Shown in pieces: positions 12,179 to 27,207 of a stretch of 64,000 nt of DNA. The stretch lies in NCBI RefSeq assembly GCF_017742995.1, contig NZ_CP072425.1, positions 1,116,001-1,180,000 on the forward strand. Direction: 5' to 3'. The number at the start of each line of letters is the position of its first letter. The stretch's first letter is position 1. The notes beneath the pieces are model-generated. The model had not been told where the DNA came from. It did no database searches and saw nothing but the letters and a program-made list of their open reading frames with translations. The position numbers were made by a program, and so were the translations under genes. The DNA is from Pseudoalteromonas viridis. Its GTDB lineage: Bacteria; Pseudomonadota; Gammaproteobacteria; Enterobacterales; Alteromonadaceae.

Positions 12179-12752
12179 TTACTGTAAGTCGTACACACTC
12201 TTACTACGATTTTTCAGCCAGGCCTCAAAGGTGTCTTCGTCAACCAACTCGGCAATACGGCTTTTAAATTCACGGTAGCCTTTTTCATCGTAAAATTGCT
12301 TCAGTCTGAGCACTTCTTCGTGACGTGATGACATACCACTGCCCGCTTTACGTACCGCACGGTCAAAGTAGCCCGATTTATGCTTGGCGCTGCTTATATA
12401 GCCACTCATATCACTGTCACTCCACTCGTTATAGATAAAGTCGTTACCACTGCCACCGGTGCCAGATGGGATCTCATCACCGCGTACGAACAGAATATCG
12501 CCGCCACCGCCGCCATACAGGCCAATATCCGAGAAAGTAGAAATTGCTGCTAAGAAGTCTTTGCTGCCGCCGCCGCTAAGTTCACAATGGCCGCGTTCAC
12601 AGACCAGAATGTCCTGACCACTGCCACCCCAGGACTTAGCCCGGTTGCCCCAGGAACCACCGCCGGAATCAACGATGATGTCAGCCCCAGAGTTACCGTA
12701 TAAACGGTCTTTGTTACCATCATTACCAAAGATGATGTCTTCCCCGTCCCCC
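12179..12752 (-). pseudogene. Displaced C-terminal part of the RTX protein (out of frame)
   Basis: In the frame shifted by one base from the upstream coding sequence, an open reading frame runs from the G tract at 12748-12753 to a stop at 12179. It continues the protein logically: more G-G-x-G-x-D type repeats, a two-Cys segment C-E-R-G-H-C, then a non-repeat tail of about 75 residues rich in Lys, Arg and Glu. One added G would restore a single protein of about 709 residues. An internal ATG at 12409 could start a 76-residue fragment, but I see no ribosome site for it. The break may be a sequencing error, a true mutation or phase variation. Confidence 0.75.
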
Positions 12753-14307
12753 CTGAGATATTGTCGCCATCCCGGTTACCAAACAGCACGTCGTTGCCAT
12801 TCTCACCTTTAATGTCGTCTGCGCCGTCATTGTTGTAGCCACTGATGCGCACCCGGTGCACCACGCCACGGTGATCGGTGGCAATCTCCGAGCCACCGGC
12901 AACCCAGTCGTTACCGGCGCCTGCGCGGATCTTGTCTTTGCCATCACCGCCAAAGATCAAGTCGTTACCCCGGCCAGTCAAAATTGTGTCGTTACCATTG
13001 AGGCCATACACTGTCATATCGCGACCAACACCGCTTGCCGACAGGGTATCGTTGCCGTTCGACAGCTGCACCTCAACGGCTTCCACCGCATTAGTAAATG
13101 CACAGTGTTGATAGCCTGCGGAGTAAGCAAACACATACTCTTCGTGCTCTTCAACAAACAGGGCCAGATTGCTGTCAAGTGCGCGAAGTTTCCACACCCC
13201 ATTATTCAGCTCACTATCAAAGCTGCCGGTTTGCATATGACAACGCGCGTAGGCCGTTGTCAGGCTGTCTGGTACATTCCCCGCTGGCGTACAGGAATAT
13301 TGCTCAATACCACTGATGTTACTTGGGATACTGCCGCTTGAGCCTTCGGTCAGACAGTCCATACCGGTACCGCCGTCGACTTTTTCGAAGTCGCCGTAGG
13401 TATAAATGGTGTCATCGCCCTTTCCGCCATACACATAGTCCACTTTATTACCGGTTAGGATGGTGTCATTACCATCACCGCCGTATACCAGCTGGTGCCA
13501 GTTCAGTGCCGTGCCGTCATATTCTTCGCCACTGTCAGCCAGGTTAACCTGGAAGCCGTTGTGGTTGCCCACATCGAAGGTTTCACAGCTGCCCGCGTAA
13601 TATACGGTTACCAGGGCATCGTCACCTTCGGCCGTGAGCTTCTCACCGCTCACATTGGGCGACACCGCCAGGTAAGTCATATATGGATTAGAGGAGTTGT
13701 CATCCGCGACGCTGATCTTGCTGCGGTCCAGGCCCTCACACCTTGCAGGGGCATAGTTGGCACAACTGGTTGCTTCTGTATTTTTAATGTTACTTGGGAT
13801 CGCCCCTTCATCGCCCTGCTCAACACAGTCTGCACCAGCGCCACCATCTACACGCTCAAAGTCACCAAACGAGAAGATCTGATCGTTACCGCCATTGCCG
13901 TAAATGTAGTCGACTTTATTACCCGTGCGGATCTCGTCGTTCCCTTCACCACCGAATACCTGCTGGTGAAAATCCAGTTTACTGCCATCGTAAAATTCAC
14001 CGCTGTCTGGCAGGTTCACGTGCAGTCCGTTGTAGTTGCTACCGTTGAGCACTTCACAGCGGCCATTGTACGACACCACAATTGAAGACTGGCTGCCTGA
14101 CACACTCAGCGCGGTGTCGGCCAGCTTGGGGCTCAGTGCCAGATAAGTCATATATTGATTTTCAACATGCTCGCCGACTTCTATCTGGGTCCGGTCCAGA
14201 CCACTACAGAAAGTGCCAGGCGCAGCCAGACGCAGGGCCTGTGCATTGTTTGGCAGCCAGGTCAGCGAGAGCGCCGCTGCCAGGAGTGCCTTTTGATAAA
14301 CCACCAT
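12550..14307 (-). CDS. Secreted RTX-type calcium-binding protein, frameshifted
   Basis: Extracytoplasmic protein with a signal peptide of about 24 residues ending in N-A-Q-A, then two tandem copies of a roughly 150-residue module. Each copy begins C-x-G-L-D-R and ends with nonapeptide-like G-G-x-G-N-D and V-D-Y-x-Y-G repeats that bind calcium in RTX folds. More G-N-D-T-I-L-T-G type repeats follow. The start at 14307 is chosen because GGAG lies seven bases upstream. After about residue 518 the reading frame changes inside a run of six Gs and the last 67 residues lose all repeat character, so this C-terminus is artefactual or mutated. The protein has a Sec signal, so it is not a classical type I secretion substrate. 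Its function is unknown. Confidence 0.8.
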   Translation of the reverse strand: MVVYQKALLAAALSLTWLPNNAQALRLAAPGTFCSGLDRTQIEVGEHVENQYMTYLALSPKLADTALSVSGSQSSIVVSYNGRCEVLNGSNYNGLHVNLPDSGEFYDGSKLDFHQQVFGGEGNDEIRTGNKVDYIYGNGGNDQIFSFGDFERVDGGAGADCVEQGDEGAIPSNIKNTEATSCANYAPARCEGLDRSKISVADDNSSNPYMTYLAVSPNVSGEKLTAEGDDALVTVYYAGSCETFDVGNHNGFQVNLADSGEEYDGTALNWHQLVYGGDGNDTILTGNKVDYVYGGKGDDTIYTYGDFEKVDGGTGMDCLTEGSSGSIPSNISGIEQYSCTPAGNVPDSLTTAYARCHMQTGSFDSELNNGVWKLRALDSNLALFVEEHEEYVFAYSAGYQHCAFTNAVEAVEVQLSNGNDTLSASGVGRDMTVYGLNGNDTILTGRGNDLIFGGDGKDKIRAGAGNDWVAGGSEIATDHRGVVHRVRISGYNNDGADDIKGENGNDVLFGNRDGDNISGGTGKTSSLVMMVTKTVYTVTLGLTSSLIPAVVPGATGLSPGVAVVRTFWSVNAAIVNLAAAAAKTS

Positions 14308-14901
14308 GTTAGTCTCCATGAGTTGAGTTCGGATATGCGCAAAGAAATCTGCATGGTGGAAGTTATAAGCCACAATTGTGCAATGACTATGGACTCAGAC
14401 TGGGTAAAAAGGATGAGTTTTGCTGCCAGCAAAACGGGCAAGCACACAGACCAAACACAACTTTCAGGCCTGCTGAGTGTGGTGGCGCATCAGTAAAACG
14501 AAGCTAACGGCGAAAAAACATCGCTAAAAATGTGGCGTTTTATTTACATTTTGCCAGCTTATACAGGCAGTTGAAAAAGCTTCATGGATTAAAAAACCAC
14601 CATAGTGGGTTACGTTTGTTTACATAATGACGTAAGCGCACTATGAATCGATTCATAAAGTACCCAGGCCTCTTCAAACACTCAGCCAGCCGTGTTGCAT
14701 TATAAAACCCTTTAAAACTCATAACTTTTACTTAAAACCCTGTAAATAAAGCAAACTTTAATGCCAACAGAAAAAAATTTTTCGGGTACAAATCAACACA
14801 TTGAGACTTTACATTTTTTAAACAGCTGTTAAATTACCCAAGTATAATAATAAGAAACAAAATGTAACTTCACTGTTTTAATATTCATATACGGATGTAC
14901 A
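14308..14901. other. Long AT-rich divergent intergenic region
   Basis: 594 bases between the divergently transcribed RTX and XRE genes, clearly more AT-rich than its surroundings. I find no credible gene in it. It holds a perfect 16-bp palindrome (14642-14657), a 10-bp palindrome AACAGCTGTT (14821-14830) and a TATAAT hexamer at 14843-14848 about 55 bases before the XRE start. No good -35 hexamer pairs with that TATAAT. Confidence 0.6.
14642..14657. promoter_or_regulatory. Perfect 16-bp palindrome
   Basis: TATGAATCGATTCATA is fully self-complementary with no spacer, the form of a dimeric repressor or LuxR-type operator. It sits about 245 bases before the XRE gene and 335 bases before the RTX gene. 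The binding factor is unknown; the adjacent XRE protein is one candidate. Confidence 0.45.
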
Positions 14902-15234: not shown

Positions 15235-15755
15235 TGCATTTTATTGAAATAATGCTTTCCTCTGTCGTTTTTATCGGCCTAATTCTTACTTGGAAAGATT
15301 ACAACGCCAGATGGTTGTTTTCCCTAATGCTTTTATTACAACTCGTCGATACGACAGTTAATCCAATAGCCATTAATTGGACCAGGCATTATTACTTGTG
15401 GTGTTTGATATTAAATTTAATCTTTCTTGTGCTATTTTTCACAAGAGGAGTTCAGGCCGAAGCTGCATATAGAATAACTAAAATTGAATTTTTTAGGAAG
15501 GCTAGAGCGAACTATGCACTCACCATTCCCGAGTGCTGTATTTGCTTGTTGTTATTTGTTTCATCGTTGCTTTGCCTTGCTATTTGGATTGAAATCCAAC
15601 TTTACTTTTATAAAGTCCTTAGTTACCCGTTTATTTATCACCATATATGGTCACCAACTCAATATACTCTTCACATTCTGGAGTCTCTGACCCTTATTAC
15701 ATTTATAGTGCATGTTAGGCGCTCAAAAGGAGAATTAATTTATGAAAACAGTTAA
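15234..15755 (+). CDS. Small integral membrane protein of the peptide cassette
   Basis: Unrecognised 173-residue protein with four or five membrane helices (about residues 3-20, 28-45, 52-70, 100-124 and 143-160). It is AT-rich and uses codons unlike the flanking genes. It is coupled to the XRE gene by a one-base overlap, and its last 14 bases overlap the first double-glycine peptide gene, so the three belong to one operon. It has no motif of an ABC transporter, C39 peptidase, CAAX protease or modifying enzyme. By position it could be an immunity protein, a sensor for the peptides or an export helper; these are guesses. That it is a real gene is supported by length, overlap and hydrophobic pattern. 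Confidence 0.8.
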   Translation: MHFIEIMLSSVVFIGLILTWKDYNARWLFSLMLLLQLVDTTVNPIAINWTRHYYLWCLILNLIFLVLFFTRGVQAEAAYRITKIEFFRKARANYALTIPECCICLLLFVSSLLCLAIWIEIQLYFYKVLSYPFIYHHIWSPTQYTLHILESLTLITFIVHVRRSKGELIYENS

Positions 15756-15873
15756 TTATAGGCTTCTAAGCAAGGTCTTTGGGGGGAGTACAGCTGGCAA
15801 CCCTAATCTACCTCAGTTGCCCCAAGTAGCCCCCATTGACCCAATATTCGATAAAAAGAAAAAAACGTCATAG
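15742..15873 (+). CDS. Double-glycine leader peptide 1
   Basis: A 43-residue peptide with AAGGAG at 15727-15732 giving a nine-base spacing to its ATG. Residues 1-15 form a canonical double-glycine leader: hydrophobic residues at -12 (Val), -7 (Leu) and -4 (Val) and Gly-Gly at -2/-1, ending K-V-F-G-G. Cleavage would release a 28-residue core with L-P-Q-L-P-Q-V-A-P-I-D-P and a basic K-K-K-K tail. The A-P-I-D motif recurs in the two peptides that follow. It overlaps the membrane protein gene by 14 bases. Leaders of this kind direct export and cleavage by C39-peptidase ABC transporters, none of which is in the window. Function (bacteriocin, signal or other) is unknown. Confidence 0.8.
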   Translation: MKTVNYRLLSKVFGGSTAGNPNLPQLPQVAPIDPIFDKKKKTS

Positions 15874-15937
15874 GTCTTTATTTAGTTGTATTTATTAATC
15901 TATTCATAATCAGGAATAATAGAGAAGGAGGTAAACA

Positions 15938-16108
15938 ATGAGAGTTATTGAACCTGTTTTATTGGTCCGAATTATGGGTGGAGGCTTTGGAGATGCAGAT
16001 AGAGCGGCCCTACCCAGAGTAGCTCCGTTAGATCCCCTTTATATGAAAAAGCTCCCCGACGGCTCGAAAACCTGTCAAACGAATAAGCCGATTTATATAA
16101 GCTATTAA
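15938..16108 (+). CDS. Double-glycine leader peptide 2
   Basis: A 56-residue peptide preceded by the strongest ribosome site in the cassette, AAGGAGGT five bases before ATG. The leader again ends at residue 15 with Gly-Gly and keeps the hydrophobic pattern: Ile at -12, Leu at -7, Ile at -4, ending R-I-M-G-G. The 41-residue core starts with another Gly, carries L-P-R-V-A-P-L-D-P matching peptide 1, one Cys, and ends in an aromatic tail (I-Y-I-S-Y). The single Cys allows no internal disulfide. The leader lengths are identical in all three peptides although the cores diverge, which argues for common processing. Confidence 0.82.
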   Translation: MRVIEPVLLVRIMGGGFGDADRAALPRVAPLDPLYMKKLPDGSKTCQTNKPIYISY

Positions 16109-16152
16109 CTTAGTCAGAATCAAAAACAGTAAATACAGAAGGATATCTTCAC

Positions 16153-16290
16153 ATGAAACGAATCAATCGAGACAATCTAGACCAAATTTTTGGCGGTTTA
16201 CCTGCAAGTTCAAAGCTACCAAAGCTACCAAAGCTTCCTAAAAGCGCACCAATAGACAAAACAAAGCTCTCTGAAAGCGCGCAAATCTAA
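16153..16290 (+). CDS. Double-glycine leader peptide 3
   Basis: A 45-residue peptide with AGAAGGAT nine bases upstream of ATG. The 15-residue leader has Ile at -12, Leu at -7, Ile at -4 and ends D-Q-I-F-G-G, the closest of the three to classical bacteriocin leaders. The core of 30 residues has a triple K-L-P repeat, then K-S-A-P-I-D-K matching the A-P-I-D motif of peptides 1 and 2, and ends in a Ser/Ala-rich tail. A rho-independent terminator follows six bases after the stop, closing the cassette. Confidence 0.82.
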   Translation: MKRINRDNLDQIFGGLPASSKLPKLPKLPKSAPIDKTKLSESAQI

Positions 16291-16561: not shown

Positions 16562-17725
16562 ATGCCAGTCCGCCTGTGGCTTACTTGCCTGTTTGCCGCG
16601 CTGCTCAGCGCCTGTGCCAATACTAAAAAGCGTCCGGCTACACCGCCGCCCCGTCCTGATATGCCCTTTAATCATGCCCTGTTTAGCCCCGTTGCGGTGA
16701 TTGACGAACAGTCGATTTTTGCCTTGCCAGCGCAAGAGCAGCAGGTTTTTTTGCGCTTTTACCAGCAACAGGTTGCAGCCGGGACGCGTGGCGATAGAGT
16801 GATTTACGACTATCTGCATGGTCAGCTTGACGAGTTTCACTACCGCGGCGAAACCTACAGCGCCAGTGCGTCTTTACAACACGGTGGCGGCAATTGTATT
16901 TCACTGGCAGTGCTCACTCAGGCCTATGCCTTTGTGGCCGGGATAGATACCCGTTATCGCAAAGTGGCCTCGGCACCTGTGTATCAGCAGGTGGCCGATA
17001 CCATACTGATCTCCTCTCATTTTAAAACTAAGCTACTGGCCCCAGAAGAGCCGGAAGACGAGAACTGGATCACCCTGGTGCGACCCGGCACGGTTATAGA
17101 TTACTTCCCCGCTCAGGATGCCATTTTTGTTGCCTCGGCCCAGTATCAGGATCTGGTGGCTAAGTTTTACGCCAACCTGGCAGTCAAGGCCATGCTGGCA
17201 GAGGAGTTTGACCTGGCCGCCGCGCGTATTTTGCGCGCCCGCAGCTATGCACCGGATGACCCGGAGCTGATCAATATTGCTGCGGTATTGCATCGCCGGG
17301 CGGGCGACCGGCGCAGTGCCGAACGCATTTACCAGTATGCACTGGAACATCGCCTGATCAGCCACAATTTGTTATCGAATTACCTGGTGCTGGCCAAAGA
17401 ACAACAGGCCACGGACCTGATAGATAAGCTGGAGCAGCAGCTTCTCAGTGAGGCGAAAACCCCGTTCGATTTTCTGATGAATGCCCGCAGCGCCATTGCC
17501 AAAGGCCACCTGAAAAAAGCCACACGTATTTTGGTAAAAGTGGTGGAACAAACCCCTTATCTGCCCGAGCCGTATTTTGAGCTGGCCAAAATCAGTTACC
17601 TGCAAGGCGACCATGATACAGCCCGTCAACTGCTTGAGCTGGCGATAGAAAAAACCTCAGATCCGGAAAAAAGCCGGGTGTTCACCGCCAAACACAGCAT
17701 GTTGCAGTCACTGACTGAGCGATAG
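16562..17725 (+). CDS. Lipoprotein with transglutaminase-like and TPR regions
   Basis: Envelope lipoprotein of 387 residues. The lipobox L-S-A-C puts the lipidated Cys at residue 18. A region around residues 85-130 has H-G-G-G-N-C-I-S, with the Cys placed like the nucleophile of transglutaminase-like cysteine peptidase folds. From about residue 200 to the end there are tetratricopeptide-like helical repeats (A-A-R-I-L-R-A-R-S-Y-A-P-D-D-P and similar). The ATG at 16562 has AAGGAG seven bases upstream; a GTG 18 bases earlier is less likely. It is separated from the peptide cassette by a terminator, so it is its own unit. Enzyme activity is not certain because I cannot place the His and Asp partners. 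Confidence 0.8.
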   Translation: MPVRLWLTCLFAALLSACANTKKRPATPPPRPDMPFNHALFSPVAVIDEQSIFALPAQEQQVFLRFYQQQVAAGTRGDRVIYDYLHGQLDEFHYRGETYSASASLQHGGGNCISLAVLTQAYAFVAGIDTRYRKVASAPVYQQVADTILISSHFKTKLLAPEEPEDENWITLVRPGTVIDYFPAQDAIFVASAQYQDLVAKFYANLAVKAMLAEEFDLAAARILRARSYAPDDPELINIAAVLHRRAGDRRSAERIYQYALEHRLISHNLLSNYLVLAKEQQATDLIDKLEQQLLSEAKTPFDFLMNARSAIAKGHLKKATRILVKVVEQTPYLPEPYFELAKISYLQGDHDTARQLLELAIEKTSDPEKSRVFTAKHSMLQSLTER

Positions 17726-18183: not shown

Positions 18184-20016
18184 ATGAAACTCACCTATCT
18201 TGTCTCTGCGCTAGGCTTACTCTCTACCGCTGCACTGGCTCAAAACACCGCGCCACTGACAGAAGCACAAATGATGCAATACACCAGTAAGGCCAGCAAG
18301 GCCATCATTGGTGCCCGTGCCGATGCCAATATTTCGCTCGGTCAGGAATTTGCCACGCTGAGCAGCACAGGCAGCACGGTTATCACCCGCACCATCAGCC
18401 ACCCGGATGCCAGCTACATCAAACTACACTTTAAAAATGTCAATCTGGCCAATGGCGGCAAGCTGGTTGTGCGCTCGGTTGATGGCAGTGAGCGTTACGA
18501 GTACACCGAAGCGAATATGCGTGCCGCAACGGTTAACAGTAAGCTGGGCGATGACGGCGTAAGCAGCTTCTCGGCGATGTCTATCTCTGCCGACACCGCA
18601 GTGGTTGAATATACTCCAGGCAGCGCGTCTGGCTCAGAGCAGATTGCAACCCAGGCGATGATGCCAGCCGTTATTGACTTCTACGACCACGGCACAGAAA
18701 ACACGCCGATGATGGAAGCCATGAATGCGTCAACGGATGTGGGCATTGAGTCGACCTGTGGCGTGAACGAACGCCGTGATGTCCAGTGCTGGGCAGGTTC
18801 AAACCCAACAGAATTTGAGCGTACACGCCCGGTTGCCCGCCTGCTGATGAACGGCAGCGGCCTGTGTACCGGCTGGCGTGTTGGCCCGGACAACCGCATG
18901 TTCACCAACGAACACTGCGTAGGTTCAGCGTCTGAGCTGGCCAATACCGAGGTGTGGTTCAACTATCAGCACACCAGCTGTAATGGCTCAAACCTTGAAA
19001 CAGTCGTGAAAGTCACAGGTAAAGACTTCCTGTCTTCTGACTACACGCTCGACTACACGCTGTTCACCATCAACGAGTTCAACAAAGCCCAGCCGTTTGG
19101 CTACTTCGGCCTGGATGTTCGCGATGCCACTCAGGGCGAGCGCATCTACATTCCTCAGCACGGCGCAGGTAATCCTAAAGAGCTAGCGATTGAATCGGAT
19201 CAGAACAACAATGGCCTGTGTCAGGCTGACGTAGTAACAGCGAACGGTCGTGGCACCGGCACAGACATGGGCTACTACTGCGACACCATCGGCGGCTCTT
19301 CTGGTTCACCGGTACTGGCAGCGGCAAGCAACAAGGTCATTGCACTGCACCACTTTGGTGGCTGTACTAACCAGGGCGTTAAGATCAGCAAGATCTGGCC
19401 ACAAGTATCTAGCCACTTCAATGGTATTCCGGATGGCGACAACAACAGCGAGCCAACCCCTACCGCAGACTTCACCGCTAGCTGTACTGAACTGGCGTGT
19501 AGCTTTGACGGCAGCGCTTCAAGCTCACCAAACGGCGCTATCTCTCAGTATGAGTGGAGCTATGGTGACAGCGGCACTGGATTCGGTGCAACCGTCAACC
19601 ACACGTATGCTACAGCGGGTAACTACACAGTCTCACTGACCATCACAGACAACACGGGCGCAACCGCAACCACGACTAAAGAAGTGCCTGTGTATGGCCC
19701 GGGTGGTGAAGATCAACTACAGAAAGGCGTTGCTAAAACAGATCTATCGGCGGCACGCGGTGAGATGACTTACTTCTACTTCGATGTACCGGCTGGTGCT
19801 ACCAACATCACCTTTGATATCTCAGGTGGCAGCGGTGATGCAGATTTGTACGTACGTAAAGGTGAGCAACCTACTACCAGCACTTATGACTGCCGTCCTT
19901 ACCGCTGGGGTAACACGGAAAACTGTACACGAAACGATGGTGCAGGCCGTTACTGGGTGGGTATTCGTGCCTATAACGCTTATTCAGGCCTGAGCCTGGT
20001 TGCGAATTACCAGTAA
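18184..20016 (+). CDS. Secreted trypsin-like serine protease with PKD and PPC domains
   Basis: Extracellular S1-family protease of 610 residues, resembling lysyl-endopeptidase-type enzymes. A signal peptide is cleaved after A-L-A (about residue 19). A propeptide-like region reaches about residue 190. The catalytic domain follows with His244 in T-N-E-H-C, Asp290 in T-L-D-Y-T-L-F and Ser373 in G-S-S-G-S-P, with several Cys for disulfides. A PKD domain (about 425-505) and a C-terminal pre-peptidase domain (about 515-610, with D-A-D-L-Y-V-R) come last; PPC domains are usually removed on maturation. AAGGA lies before the ATG and a strong terminator follows. It is monocistronic. The PKD domain closely resembles that of the subtilase at 61578. 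Confidence 0.93.
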   Translation: MKLTYLVSALGLLSTAALAQNTAPLTEAQMMQYTSKASKAIIGARADANISLGQEFATLSSTGSTVITRTISHPDASYIKLHFKNVNLANGGKLVVRSVDGSERYEYTEANMRAATVNSKLGDDGVSSFSAMSISADTAVVEYTPGSASGSEQIATQAMMPAVIDFYDHGTENTPMMEAMNASTDVGIESTCGVNERRDVQCWAGSNPTEFERTRPVARLLMNGSGLCTGWRVGPDNRMFTNEHCVGSASELANTEVWFNYQHTSCNGSNLETVVKVTGKDFLSSDYTLDYTLFTINEFNKAQPFGYFGLDVRDATQGERIYIPQHGAGNPKELAIESDQNNNGLCQADVVTANGRGTGTDMGYYCDTIGGSSGSPVLAAASNKVIALHHFGGCTNQGVKISKIWPQVSSHFNGIPDGDNNSEPTPTADFTASCTELACSFDGSASSSPNGAISQYEWSYGDSGTGFGATVNHTYATAGNYTVSLTITDNTGATATTTKEVPVYGPGGEDQLQKGVAKTDLSAARGEMTYFYFDVPAGATNITFDISGGSGDADLYVRKGEQPTTSTYDCRPYRWGNTENCTRNDGAGRYWVGIRAYNAYSGLSLVANYQ

Positions 20017-24425: not shown

Positions 24426-24453
24426 ATTATACGCAAATGATAACTATTATCAA
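24426..24453 (-). promoter_or_regulatory. Fur-controlled sigma-70 promoter
   Basis: On the minus strand TTGATA (24448-24453), a 16-base spacer and a perfect TATAAT (24426-24431). The spacer holds TGATAATAGTTATCA (24438-24452), which matches 13 of 14 defined positions of the 7-1-7 Fur motif. It drives the small membrane protein gene; the -35 overlaps the stop of the histidine kinase. Confidence 0.72.
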
Positions 24454-25745
24454 CTCGGTAAGGTCATCTTGATCATCGCGCCTGGTTGCTCACCTTCGTT
24501 GACATTGGCCACCTCGAAGTGGCCATCATGGCATTCGATCACGTGCTGGCTGAACGTCAAGCCTATGCCCTGACCATCGACTTTGGTGGAATAAAATGGT
24601 GTCAGGACATTGTCGAGGTTGGCAAATCCGCCCCCTTCATCTGCAACTTCAATCACCACCGCCGGGCTGAGATAGTAGCTGCGTATGCTCACCCTTTGAC
24701 CCGCCGGACTGGCCGACTGATTGGCCTCAATAGCATTTTTAACCAGGTTGATCAGTACCTGTTCAACTAAGTGAGGATCGCAGTGACACTGGTGGGCCTG
24801 ACAGTCCAGATCAATCTGCTGTGTGGGATGTTGCGATGTAAACAAGTCGCGGACCGACTCAAACAAGGGCCCCAGCTGGATCTTTTGGATCTGCGGCTCT
24901 ATGGCTTTGCTGATCTCACCATAACGCGCCACAAAGTGCTGTAAATGCAGGCAACGCTGCTCTATCACACTCAGTGCCTGTTGCTCTCTGGTGGATGTTG
25001 CACGCTCTGCCAGGCTCTGCGCCAGCGAACTGACCGGCGTCAGTGAATTACGAATTTCATGGCTGATCACCCGGATCAGCTGTTGCCAGGCCGCCAGCTC
25101 TTTCTGCCGTAACGCCTTGGTGATATCGAGCGCCACCAGCAGACTGTGACGGGCCCCCTGCTCGTAAAAGTAGCTGCTGTGGAGCTGCCAGCGGGCCGCC
25201 TGGGCATGGCTGATAAACTGCCAGCCATGCTGTGCTTCTTCCAGCCCAAGCGAGGTGGCCGTGGTGCCTTTATAGTGCTGCCAAGGTTGTCTATACAAGC
25301 TTTCAAACGCTTGATTTGCATAGCTTAACCGCGAATCCTCGGTAAACACCAAAATCGGCGCGTTGAGCTTGTCGATAAGCTGATAAATCACAAAAATCTG
25401 CGAGTTATAACGCGATTTCTGCTGATGTAACTGCTCGCCCAGGGCAATCAGTTGCTGTTCAAATGCCGCCACCTGACCGGATTCAAAATGTGGCCGCAGC
25501 TGCTGGCTAAAATCCGCCTGCAACATGGCTTCGAGCTGCCAGTGTGCGCGGGAAAAAATCCGCTTCAGCTGTGCCAGCCGCCGTTTATGCAGACGCCACA
25601 ATACCCCGCTGACTGCGCCACTGACGAGCACAATCTGCCACCAGGGCAGCGCCTGTTGCCACAACACCCCGGACAGCAAGGCCACCACTGCCAGCCCCAG
25701 CAAGGCCAGATACCAGTGCAAACTGCGCTCAAAGTTAGCTTTCAC
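24450..25745 (-). CDS. NtrY-like sensor histidine kinase
   Basis: Inner-membrane kinase of 431 residues, partner of the sigma-54 response regulator upstream of it. Two membrane helices (about residues 10-30 and 34-50) are followed by a coiled linker, a PAS-like domain (about 105-215), a HisKA domain with the phospho-His in S-H-E-I-R-N-S-L-T-P (about residue 231), and a HATPase domain with N-L-V-K-N-A-I-E-A, D-E-G-G-G-F and G-Q-G-I-G-L-T. The periplasmic loop is only a few residues, so sensing is probably intramembrane or cytosolic. The GTG start overlaps the regulator's end by 11 bases. The probable target is the sigma-54 ABC exporter operon at 7.5-12 kb. Confidence 0.92.
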   Translation of the reverse strand: MKANFERSLHWYLALLGLAVVALLSGVLWQQALPWWQIVLVSGAVSGVLWRLHKRRLAQLKRIFSRAHWQLEAMLQADFSQQLRPHFESGQVAAFEQQLIALGEQLHQQKSRYNSQIFVIYQLIDKLNAPILVFTEDSRLSYANQAFESLYRQPWQHYKGTTATSLGLEEAQHGWQFISHAQAARWQLHSSYFYEQGARHSLLVALDITKALRQKELAAWQQLIRVISHEIRNSLTPVSSLAQSLAERATSTREQQALSVIEQRCLHLQHFVARYGEISKAIEPQIQKIQLGPLFESVRDLFTSQHPTQQIDLDCQAHQCHCDPHLVEQVLINLVKNAIEANQSASPAGQRVSIRSYYLSPAVVIEVADEGGGFANLDNVLTPFYSTKVDGQGIGLTFSQHVIECHDGHFEVANVNEGEQPGAMIKMTLPS

Positions 25746-27105
25746 TGCGTAATCCGTATTTGTCCAGACGACGATACAAAGACGACTTGGTCAGCCCAAG
25801 TGCTTTCGCCGCCTCGCTGACCTGCCCCTGATGGAGCGCCAGTGTTTGCTCAATTAATGCCTTCTCGACCTCGGCCAGCGTAGCGCCTGGCGCGGGTGAC
25901 ACCGGATTGTGCACTTGCTCAGGCTTGGGGTTGGGGTTGGCTAAGCGCAACTGACAGTCGGCAGCACAGATCTGCGCCCCTTCGCTGAGCAATAAAGCCC
26001 GCTCCATCACATGACTGAGCTCACGAATATTGCCGGGCCAGCGATACGCCAGCAGTGCGGCCTGCGCCTCGTTGTCGAGTGACTTAGTAGCCAGCTTATA
26101 ACGCGCCGCATGACGCGCCAGCAGATGCTCTGCCAGAGGCACAATATCATCCAGCCGGGCACGCAATGGCGGCAGTTCAAAGGTAAAGGTATTGATCCGA
26201 TAAAACAGATCGCTGCGAAAACGCCCTTGTGCCACATCCTGCTCTAGATCGCTGTTTGTCGCACAGATAAGGCGAATATCGGCACGTTCGGTACGGCTGC
26301 TCCCGACCCGTTCATATTCACCGCTTTCCAATACCCGCAACAGTTTCGCTTGCTGGGTCAGGGGAATGGTCGCGACCTCGTCGAGGAATAAGGTGCCACC
26401 ACTGGCCAGCTCAAAACGGCCACTACGCTGTGACTTGGCGTCGGTAAAGGCCCCTTTGGTGTGACCAAACATTTCACTTTCGAATAAGCTTTCAGGGATC
26501 GCGCCCATATTGACGCTGATCAGCGGCCCGCCACTGCGTGCCGACTGTTGATGGAGCGTTTCCACCAGATGGCTTTTACCACAGCCACTTTCGCCACACA
26601 GCAACACACTGGCATCTGTGGCCGCGATCCGCTCAAGCTTACCAAGCAGCGTTTGCATTGCTGCAGAGCGCCATGAATAAGTGGGCAACGCTACCTCAGC
26701 ATCCGCACTCTCACTGCGCTTTGCCTGCAATACACTGAGTTTACTCTGCTTGCGGATGGCATCCAGCAGTTGCGGGTTTTGCCAGGGCTTTTCAATGAAA
26801 TCAGCAGCTCCCAGACGCATTGCCTCGACGGCCAGTGTCACACTGCCCCAGCCGGTCAGGCAGATCACCGCCGGTGCCCGGGGCTGAGTCTGTAGCCAGC
26901 TCAGAAAGGCCAGCCCCTCATTGCCGGATGTGGTGTCCCGGGTGAAGTTCATATCCAGCAAAATGAGCGTTATCTGTTTACAGCTCAGAAATTGCTTAGC
27001 GACCTCCGGATGCTCGGCTTCAAACACTTCAAAACCATGATCTTCAAGCAAAAATGCGGCGCTTAACCGCACCTCTGGGTTGTCATCAACAATCAGTACC
27101 GCCAT
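25735..27105 (-). CDS. Sigma-54-dependent response regulator, NtrC family
   Basis: Activator of RNA polymerase-sigma-54, 456 residues. The receiver domain (1-125) has phospho-acceptor Asp51 in L-L-D-M-N-F. The AAA+ domain (about 155-385) has Walker A G-E-S-G-C-G-K-S-H and Walker B G-G-T-L-F-L-D-E. The sigma-54 contact loop reads G-A-F-T-D-A instead of G-A-F-T-G-A, a variant found in active members. A Fis-type helix-turn-helix closes the protein (about 415-456). The ATG at 27105 with AGGGAA upstream is preferred to one 63 bases earlier. It is the first gene of a two-gene operon with its kinase. Two RpoN-type promoters occur near 12 kb, upstream of an ABC exporter. Confidence 0.93.
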   Translation of the reverse strand: MAVLIVDDNPEVRLSAAFLLEDHGFEVFEAEHPEVAKQFLSCKQITLILLDMNFTRDTTSGNEGLAFLSWLQTQPRAPAVICLTGWGSVTLAVEAMRLGAADFIEKPWQNPQLLDAIRKQSKLSVLQAKRSESADAEVALPTYSWRSAAMQTLLGKLERIAATDASVLLCGESGCGKSHLVETLHQQSARSGGPLISVNMGAIPESLFESEMFGHTKGAFTDAKSQRSGRFELASGGTLFLDEVATIPLTQQAKLLRVLESGEYERVGSSRTERADIRLICATNSDLEQDVAQGRFRSDLFYRINTFTFELPPLRARLDDIVPLAEHLLARHAARYKLATKSLDNEAQAALLAYRWPGNIRELSHVMERALLLSEGAQICAADCQLRLANPNPKPEQVHNPVSPAPGATLAEVEKALIEQTLALHQGQVSEAAKALGLTKSSLYRRLDKYGLRSES

Positions 27106-27207
27106 CGTATTCCCTGTTCGTCTATCACTGTGTGCAGAATACGGGAAATTGGCAAAGACGAAAAGCACCTGACAGGCGCTTGTCTTATCTGTGGCTTGTA
27201 TTAGTAA

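Follow-up and report, generated by a model that had tools for sequence, protein, structure and literature searches.

Pheromone systems of Gram-positive bacteria (ComC/CSP, EntF-type and agr) join a short secreted peptide to an adjacent polytopic membrane protein, a conserved regulator and an exchangeable block, and the agr-type pheromone groups offer an analogy for a specificity module that is exchanged as a whole; to our knowledge, peptide signals whose specificity can be swapped are familiar from Gram-positive bacteria and scarcely known in Gram-negative ones. Here we describe a locus of comparable composition in a 64-kb stretch of DNA (the window: positions 1,116,001 to 1,180,000 of contig NZ_CP072425.1) from the 5.55-Mb, two-contig genome of Pseudoalteromonas viridis, in which the genes of an XRE-type transcription regulator (XRE), a membrane protein (MEM) and three small peptides with double-glycine (GG) leaders (P1, P2 and P3) follow one another. 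As read from the DNA, the locus belongs to a family of such cassettes, in which the peptides obey the leader rule of C39-processed peptides and are under selection, MEM and peptides are exchanged as a module, and a palindrome recurs; an intact C39 exporter co-occurs with them. We suggest, with about even confidence, that it represents one member of a family of cassettes for secreted, allele-specific peptide signals. It departs from the Gram-positive systems in its Gram-negative host, in having an XRE regulator instead of a histidine kinase and response regulator (neither XRE nor MEM matches a kinase or response-regulator family in Pfam), and in that no cyclisation enzyme was seen.

Class II microcins share with the locus a GG leader, a C39 exporter with an HlyD partner, and a small membrane protein next to the peptide. 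Known class II microcins appear to have longer, hydrophobic cores, whereas the cores here comprise 12–43 amino acids (aa) and are hydrophilic; XRE and the recurring palindromes set the locus apart as well, there are often several peptides per membrane protein, and the peptide genes outlast the membrane protein. With the class I lanthipeptide cluster of Pseudoalteromonas (pci type) the locus has in common the genome and probably the C39 exporter, but its peptides mostly lack cysteine and a long leader, and no modifying enzyme lies in the cassette. The nearest functional parallel that we met, by analogy and as far as the available part of the report describes it, is the nap island of Neisseria gonorrhoeae (PMC11798529), which, likewise in a Gram-negative host, combines a regulator with several GG peptides, a membrane protein and C39 processing. 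Compared by description, the island has its C39 gene at one end and encodes cationic peptides, whereas here the C39 gene is unlinked and there are up to eight cassettes per genome; in that same part of the report the nap peptides are stated not to kill competitors (PMC11798529). In searches of an open-access library, no title or abstract start described an XRE–MEM–peptide cassette or the core of these peptides.

The peptides and their family

A sequence-only reading of the window had proposed three tandem small genes, and these are real, with ATG starts and the ribosome-binding sites (RBS) listed in Table 1. Their leaders are exactly 15 residues long, carrying V/I/I at −12, L/L/L at −7, V/I/I at −4 and GG at −2/−1, and L-P-x-[VS]-A-P-[IL]-D is literally common to the three cores (LPQVAPID, LPRVAPLD and LPKSAPID). 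Cleavage after GG would leave cores of 28, 41 and 30 residues for P1, P2 and P3. What that reading missed, in treating the peptides as free-standing genes, are the overlapping XRE and MEM genes directly upstream. The order on the plus strand is XRE–MEM–P1–P2–P3, the peptide genes closing the compact cluster: the XRE stop overlaps the MEM start, the MEM stop overlaps the P1 start by 14 nucleotides (nt), and gaps of 64 and 44 nt separate P1 from P2 and P2 from P3.

A strict scan (ATG start, Shine–Dalgarno-like 4-mer, hydrophobic residues at −12/−7/−4, and G followed by G, A or S), blind to GTG/TTG starts and to longer leaders, matched only P1–P3 on both strands of the whole window; without the RBS condition three further matches appeared, with dissimilar cores. 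Over at most 1 kb 3' of 115 MEM homologues it returned 87 sense peptides in 61 of the 115 regions (82 distinct peptides), and none either on the reverse strand or in 20 rounds of dinucleotide shuffling. This amounts to 0.73 peptides per kb downstream of MEM versus 0.03 per kb in control loci, where the same rule, applied to 480 kb of strand from 15 C39 loci, yielded 15 peptides, mostly from one array of another GG peptide. The leader was exactly 15 residues long in 69 of the 87. Among the 75 leaders of at least 15 residues, a subset of the 82 distinct peptides, position −7 was L in 68 and position −4 was V or I in every one; the hydrophobic and GG positions were built into the scan, which permitted L, I, V, M, F or Y, but the limit to V or I at −4 was not. 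Both P1–P3 and these position statistics thus bear out the C39-type leader rule.

Pooled ratios of non-synonymous to synonymous substitution (dN/dS) were 0.26 for leaders and 0.16 for cores (22 close, non-independent pairs), far below the value near 1 that would speak against real cores. As judged from these substitutions, the cores are under purifying selection, and a core dN/dS of 0.16 argues that the mature part is a translated and selected product. Short open reading frames (ORFs) are common, 176 of at least 30 aa overlapping 18 kb of the window; nevertheless, the notion that the peptide genes are chance ORFs which happen to hold Gly-Gly can practically be dismissed, being refuted by the absence of antisense and shuffled matches, the constancy of the 15-residue leader and the purifying selection.

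Across relatives the leader is strongly kept; the APID core that the sequence-only reading had expected to be conserved is confined to few alleles, and the pattern [AV]P[ILF][DNV] fits 8 of the 82 distinct peptides. The motif met most often is P-x-[LIV]-P, which 51 of the 82 distinct cores contain, 38 of them with x-[RQK] after it, and where P-x-[LIVTY]-P occurs its first P falls at position 5–8 after GG in 45 of 52 cores. Cores have a median length of 27 aa (range about 12–43; at most 17 aa in 13 of 82), contain 16.7% proline and are all hydrophilic, with a grand average of hydropathy (GRAVY) of −0.14 or lower. Cysteine is found in 9 of the 82 distinct cores, and at least two cysteines in one; P1 and P3 have none and P2 has one. 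A close relative of P3 is present at the same locus of another genome (G052; G and L numbers denote genomes and loci).

By these features P1–P3 are members of the GG/C39 kind of peptide, with which they share the 15-residue leader, its hydrophobic positions and GG, and the presence in the genome of an intact C39 exporter with an HlyD partner; they differ in that the exporter is unlinked and common to cassettes scattered over the genome, and in the short proline-rich P-x-[LIV]-P core. No described family was met for them within the libraries searched: NCBIfam gave no family at E up to 1, and Pfam a single match below the cut-off (DUF7662, for P3). When 47 relatives were compared with NCBIfam, the weak matches were most often to the EntF bacteriocin induction factor (8 of 47, best E 0.0014), with a weak likeness to the ComC profile as well.

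A multicopy cassette

In Pseudoalteromonas XRE–MEM–peptide is, from sequence comparison, a multicopy cassette. Of 108 genomes of the genus, 29 carry MEM homologues, with up to 8 matches per genome. Among 116 MEM copies with context, 86 have XRE directly next to them and 12 more have it within 1.2 kb; no XRE was found for the other 18. The 117 MEM ORFs include 3 locus-edge fragments that repeat parts of others and 2 pieces of one broken gene (L107); 2 of the 117 were left out of the peptide scan, their downstream sequence being too short. A peptide profile matches 38 of the 108 genomes, all 29 with MEM among them, the 9 without MEM giving weak matches (best E 2.6e-6 to 0.0091). Beyond the genus, in overlapping samples of 395 genomes of the family, 394 of the order and 369 of the class, there was one convincing match, in G126, where XRE and MEM stand in a row with an ORF that resembles a GG peptide gene and has a weaker ribosome site; one weak match came from G813, where no GG peptide was found.

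As a rule the MEM gene immediately precedes the peptide genes, the order of MEM and peptide being reversed in loci of the L034 and L126 type. L034, a paralogous cassette in P. viridis itself, has a MEM of 23% identity and a peptide with FAPIDPAF. There (L034:6064-7588) the order is XRE, peptide, MEM, with a second, divergent XRE, and the peptide has APIDP like the window peptides. Tandem arrays of MEM homologues, most copies having no detected peptide, were observed at L095, L098, L114 and L123; they may consist of orphan immunity genes or of ligand-less receptors.

The AlphaFold2 model of MEM (predicted local distance difference test score 89.8, predicted template modelling score 0.81) has helices consistent with five transmembrane segments. 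None of 25 MEM family members matched Pfam at E 0.01, and neither P1–P3 nor MEM had an above-cut-off match in Pfam, NCBIfam, PADLOC or PHROGs, as these libraries were applied to each. Four polar residues in or near helices, Y54, R71, E100 and E120, are invariant in 25 of 25 members, which, with the usual place of the gene directly before the peptides, would suit an export accessory or a maturation protease whose peptides act elsewhere. We consider such a role improbable, given that one C39 exporter already accounts for cleavage, that peptide genes persist without MEM, and that MEM diverges by allele, which general processing would not need.

MEM and peptides are exchanged as a block

Between near relatives MEM and the peptides are, on the evidence of the alignments, replaced together while XRE stays conserved. 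The locus is present in nine genomes (P. viridis and eight relatives); XRE DNA identity is 88–98% in the 12 pairs computed, and the protein is 93–97% identical to its 8 orthologues with dN/dS of about 0.03–0.09. G062 and G053 share 98% of XRE nucleotides, compared with 59% for MEM and 46% for P1 (frameshifted after the leader in G062), whereas G053 and G007 share 88% for XRE, 94% for MEM and 92% for P1. P. viridis and G051 are 92–97% identical in the upstream gene, the spacer, XRE, part of the downstream spacer and the downstream gene; MEM is 70% identical and the peptide stretch cannot be aligned. For four of the eight relatives (G062, G054, G095 and G053) no alignment of the downstream flank was obtained in the sequence retrieved. 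Over 47 loci, divergence of the first core tracks MEM rather than XRE (partial Mantel 0.32, p 0.001, versus 0.11), figures that include shared ancestry.

The peptide also survives where MEM does not. In G007 MEM is interrupted by a deletion of about 0.4 kb, with XRE and peptide left intact, and at another locus of the P. viridis genome the XRE–MEM part is gone, one peptide survives and a second is disrupted. These two loci at which MEM is deleted or cut and a peptide gene stays whole are L145 and L146, and an integrase-core transposase ORF lies beside the one at L145.

These observations bear on a second explanation, which we regard as possible but rather doubtful, namely that the cassettes encode narrow-spectrum, microcin-like bacteriocins, the GG peptides inhibiting close relatives, MEM acting as the cognate immunity protein and XRE controlling production. 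The cores seem to tell against it, since in length and GRAVY they appear unlike those of known class II microcins. The loss of MEM with retention of the peptide, in G007 and in P. viridis itself, argues against it too, because selection should act against a toxin gene that has lost its immunity partner, barring a paralogous MEM, and paralogous MEMs might indeed cover these losses. On the other hand, the linked exchange of MEM and peptide, which an arms race might conceivably drive, the multiple copies and the many MEM genes without a detected peptide all fit toxin–immunity pairs. One relative is labelled 'bacteriocin' by a source, and 3 of the 47 relatives resemble the 'bacteriocin' signal TIGR01847. 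Known class II microcin immunity proteins are, according to the accessible portion of one survey, 51–216 aa long, tend to lie in the inner membrane and are encoded near the peptide, and MEM, 173 aa long and adjacent, is of the kind sought there as a candidate immunity protein (nearby, 30–250 aa, usually in the membrane; PMC9746304). The nap island, in the part of its description available, has an immunity-like protein alongside its regulator and GG peptides (PMC11798529).

The C39 exporter and its neighbours

As the sequence-only reading had noted, no C39 exporter lies beside the peptides: the genome's one Peptidase_C39 match sits outside the window. The exporter that it had proposed to look for elsewhere in the genome exists and is intact, a 714-aa C39-ABC protein (Pfam) encoded 82 kb from the peptides, with the triad C31/H104/D120; the corresponding positions in the reference CvaB are C32, H105 and D121, as given in the accessible portion of PMC9746304. 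All 29 genomes with MEM have an orthologue of at least 78% identity, compared with 21 of the 79 without MEM; sorted by peptide, all 38 positive genomes have it, compared with 12 of the remaining 70. Shared ancestry is included in these counts.

Beside the exporter lie genes for an HlyD-type protein, glmU, LanC and LanB. A small ORF (L033:11354-11500; G000:C1 near 1219353) with a 30-residue GG leader and two cysteines in its core, a candidate lanthipeptide precursor, lies on the far side of glmU relative to the HlyD/C39/LanC/LanB genes and on the opposite strand. Elsewhere, on the minus strand of L134 (G062:C2 about 4449300-4450700), eleven near-identical genes for 36-aa GG peptides, spaced at 134 nt, stand near two more C39 exporters.

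The LanB (Lant_dehydr_N and C) and LANC_like genes that flank the exporter raise the question whether P1–P3 could be precursors of ribosomally synthesised and post-translationally modified peptides (RiPPs), modified in trans by these enzymes. LanB is found in 29 of 29 MEM genomes, and a lanthipeptide of Pseudoalteromonas citrea has, by the part of the report available, been produced and modified in Escherichia coli (PMC9993889). However, 22 of the 79 genomes that lack MEM have LanB as well, and its presence is uninformative about the peptides because it tracks the exporter (both in 49 genomes, exporter alone in 1, LanB alone in 2). Moreover, lanthionine rings are impossible in most cores owing to the absence of cysteine (73 of 82 cores have none and 1 has two or more), and the leaders are mostly of 15 residues, compared with 30 residues and two core cysteines in the candidate near LanB/LanC. 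We therefore hold the RiPP explanation to be very unlikely.

A recurring palindrome

With a gap of exactly 4 and at most one mismatch, the palindrome ATGAA-N4-TTCAT is found upstream of 25 of 37 non-redundant cassette XRE genes (8 times exactly; shuffle mean 0.8), a count that is not independent because the motif was first noticed in the same regions; in paralogues it often lies about 100–117 nt before the XRE start. More telling are the gaps that precede peptide genes: of 29 non-redundant ones, 15 contain the palindrome, against a mean of 0.42 after shuffling and 2 for a reversed-pattern control, although the window's own site before P2 had been seen before this count was made. The window contains one exact site (14643) and one site with a single mismatch (15894); the motif of the former, candidate operator 1, is kept in 9 of 9 orthologous loci. 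Genome-wide, eight sites match TTATGAA-N4-TTCATAA with one mismatch or none, and four of them lie at cassette or family-peptide loci. One of the four, at L144, accompanies a peptide gene near which neither XRE nor MEM was found.

If XRE indeed binds this common palindrome, such binding would be the reason why it remains constant while MEM and the peptides vary. For the bacteriocin explanation, palindromes before peptide genes together with one highly conserved XRE are a difficulty, in that they suit a regulatory circuit at least equally well.

Proposed mechanism

Among the functions suggested by the sequence-only reading, a signal fits best, bacteriocins come after it as the rather doubtful alternative set out above, and precursors of the lanthipeptide type find little favour. 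For a signal speak the short hydrophilic cores, the palindromes at peptide genes and the natural loss of MEM with the peptide retained; the cassette links a secreted-peptide gene to a membrane receptor candidate and a regulator, as in peptide pheromone systems. We propose that XRE may bind ATGAA-N4-TTCAT operators before its own operon and before the downstream peptide genes, and that the shared C39 ABC exporter (the HlyD–C39 pair by glmU) would remove the 15-residue GG leader during export, releasing hydrophilic, proline-rich peptides of about 12–43 residues. The five-helix MEM may be the cognate receptor, relaying the signal to XRE, with which it appears translationally coupled; MEM and peptides would be exchanged as a specificity module, so that each strain might hear its own type. 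We infer the use of that exporter, the binding by XRE, the receptor role and a contact between MEM and XRE, and the signal reading further presumes a direction of regulation and a controlled behaviour. Since up to eight cassettes per genome appear to have one operator type, cross-talk between cassettes is possible; and operator 1, being distant from XRE, could serve the divergent gene too.

Several points weigh against a signal. Peptides of 1.2–4 kDa would have to cross the recipient's outer membrane. MEM contains no kinase or other known signalling domain (Pfam; 25 members), structural comparison of its model brought up no clear fold relative, and its conservation, mapped on the model, is not concentrated on one face. 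No strict peptide lies within 1 kb in 54 of 115 MEM regions, which fits orphan immunity genes too; the two MEM losses could be decaying loci, where other MEM copies might compensate; and the lowest NCBIfam E value in the 47 relatives (0.00079) belongs to TIGR01847. As for the palindrome, besides the dependence of the upstream count, its frequency is increased in control stretches downstream too (10 of 37), where we attribute it to peptide promoters, it occurs at sites without a cassette, and operator 1 is farther upstream of XRE than in most paralogues. Shared ancestry likewise tempers the exporter and Mantel figures.

Features of the locus and its surroundings

Coordinates of the locus are collected in Table 1. 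The promoter block that contains TTTAAACAGCTGTTAAA is invariant in the 9 orthologous loci; this palindrome has its sole exact genome match here, paralogous cassettes being without it, and the promoter-like hexamers near it are no more numerous than expected by chance.

Table 1. Positions of the regulator, membrane protein, peptide genes and candidate control sites within the window
Feature	Position	Strand	Remarks
Candidate XRE operator 1, CTATGAATCGATTCATAA	14641..14658		Exact ATGAA-N4-TTCAT; 259 nt before XRE start, between XRE and divergent gene
Conserved promoter block with locus-specific palindrome TTTAAACAGCTGTTAAA	14817..14833	+	Near promoter-like hexamers
XRE/HTH_3 transcription regulator, 110 aa	14902..15234	+	Pfam HTH_3, E 2.7e-11
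MEM, membrane protein of undescribed family, 173 aa	15234..15755	+	Predicted helices
Peptide P1, 43 aa, leader MKTVNYRLLSKVFGG	15742..15873	+	ORF; RBS AGGAG
Candidate XRE operator 2, TTATTAATCTATTCATAA	15892..15909		One mismatch to ATGAA-N4-TTCAT; 44 nt before P2
Peptide P2, 56 aa, leader MRVIEPVLLVRIMGG	15938..16108	+	ORF; RBS GGAGG
Peptide P3, 45 aa, leader MKRINRDNLDQIFGG	16153..16290	+	ORF; RBS AGGA; LPK repeats in core

Divergent from XRE, with the exact palindrome between them, a 607-aa ORF (12550-14373, minus strand) carries RTX calcium-binding repeats (HemolysinCabind). On the 3' side of the cassette are a TPR protein with a weak transglutaminase-like match (16565-17725) and a trypsin-like protease that looks secreted and carries PKD and PPC domains (18184-20016). 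A histidine kinase and NtrC-type response regulator pair is encoded about 8 kb from the cassette (24450-27168, minus strand), and no link between the two was seen.

Implications

The locus brings together, in a compact cassette repeated within a marine genus, a candidate regulator, operator, membrane partner, peptide and exporter. Tentatively, and with rather less than even confidence, we suggest that it represents a new Gram-negative system of peptide communication, in which an orphan five-helix receptor and XRE would replace the two-component pair, one common C39 exporter would release the short P-x-L-P peptides, and swapped receptor–peptide blocks would form recognition groups. Were the peptides bacteriocins instead, they would constitute a large family outside the searched libraries (82 distinct peptides by the strict scan) with an undescribed type of membrane partner. 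Such cassettes may have a role in related bacteria recognizing or competing with one another, and kin recognition via GG peptides in Gram-negative bacteria becomes a testable question.

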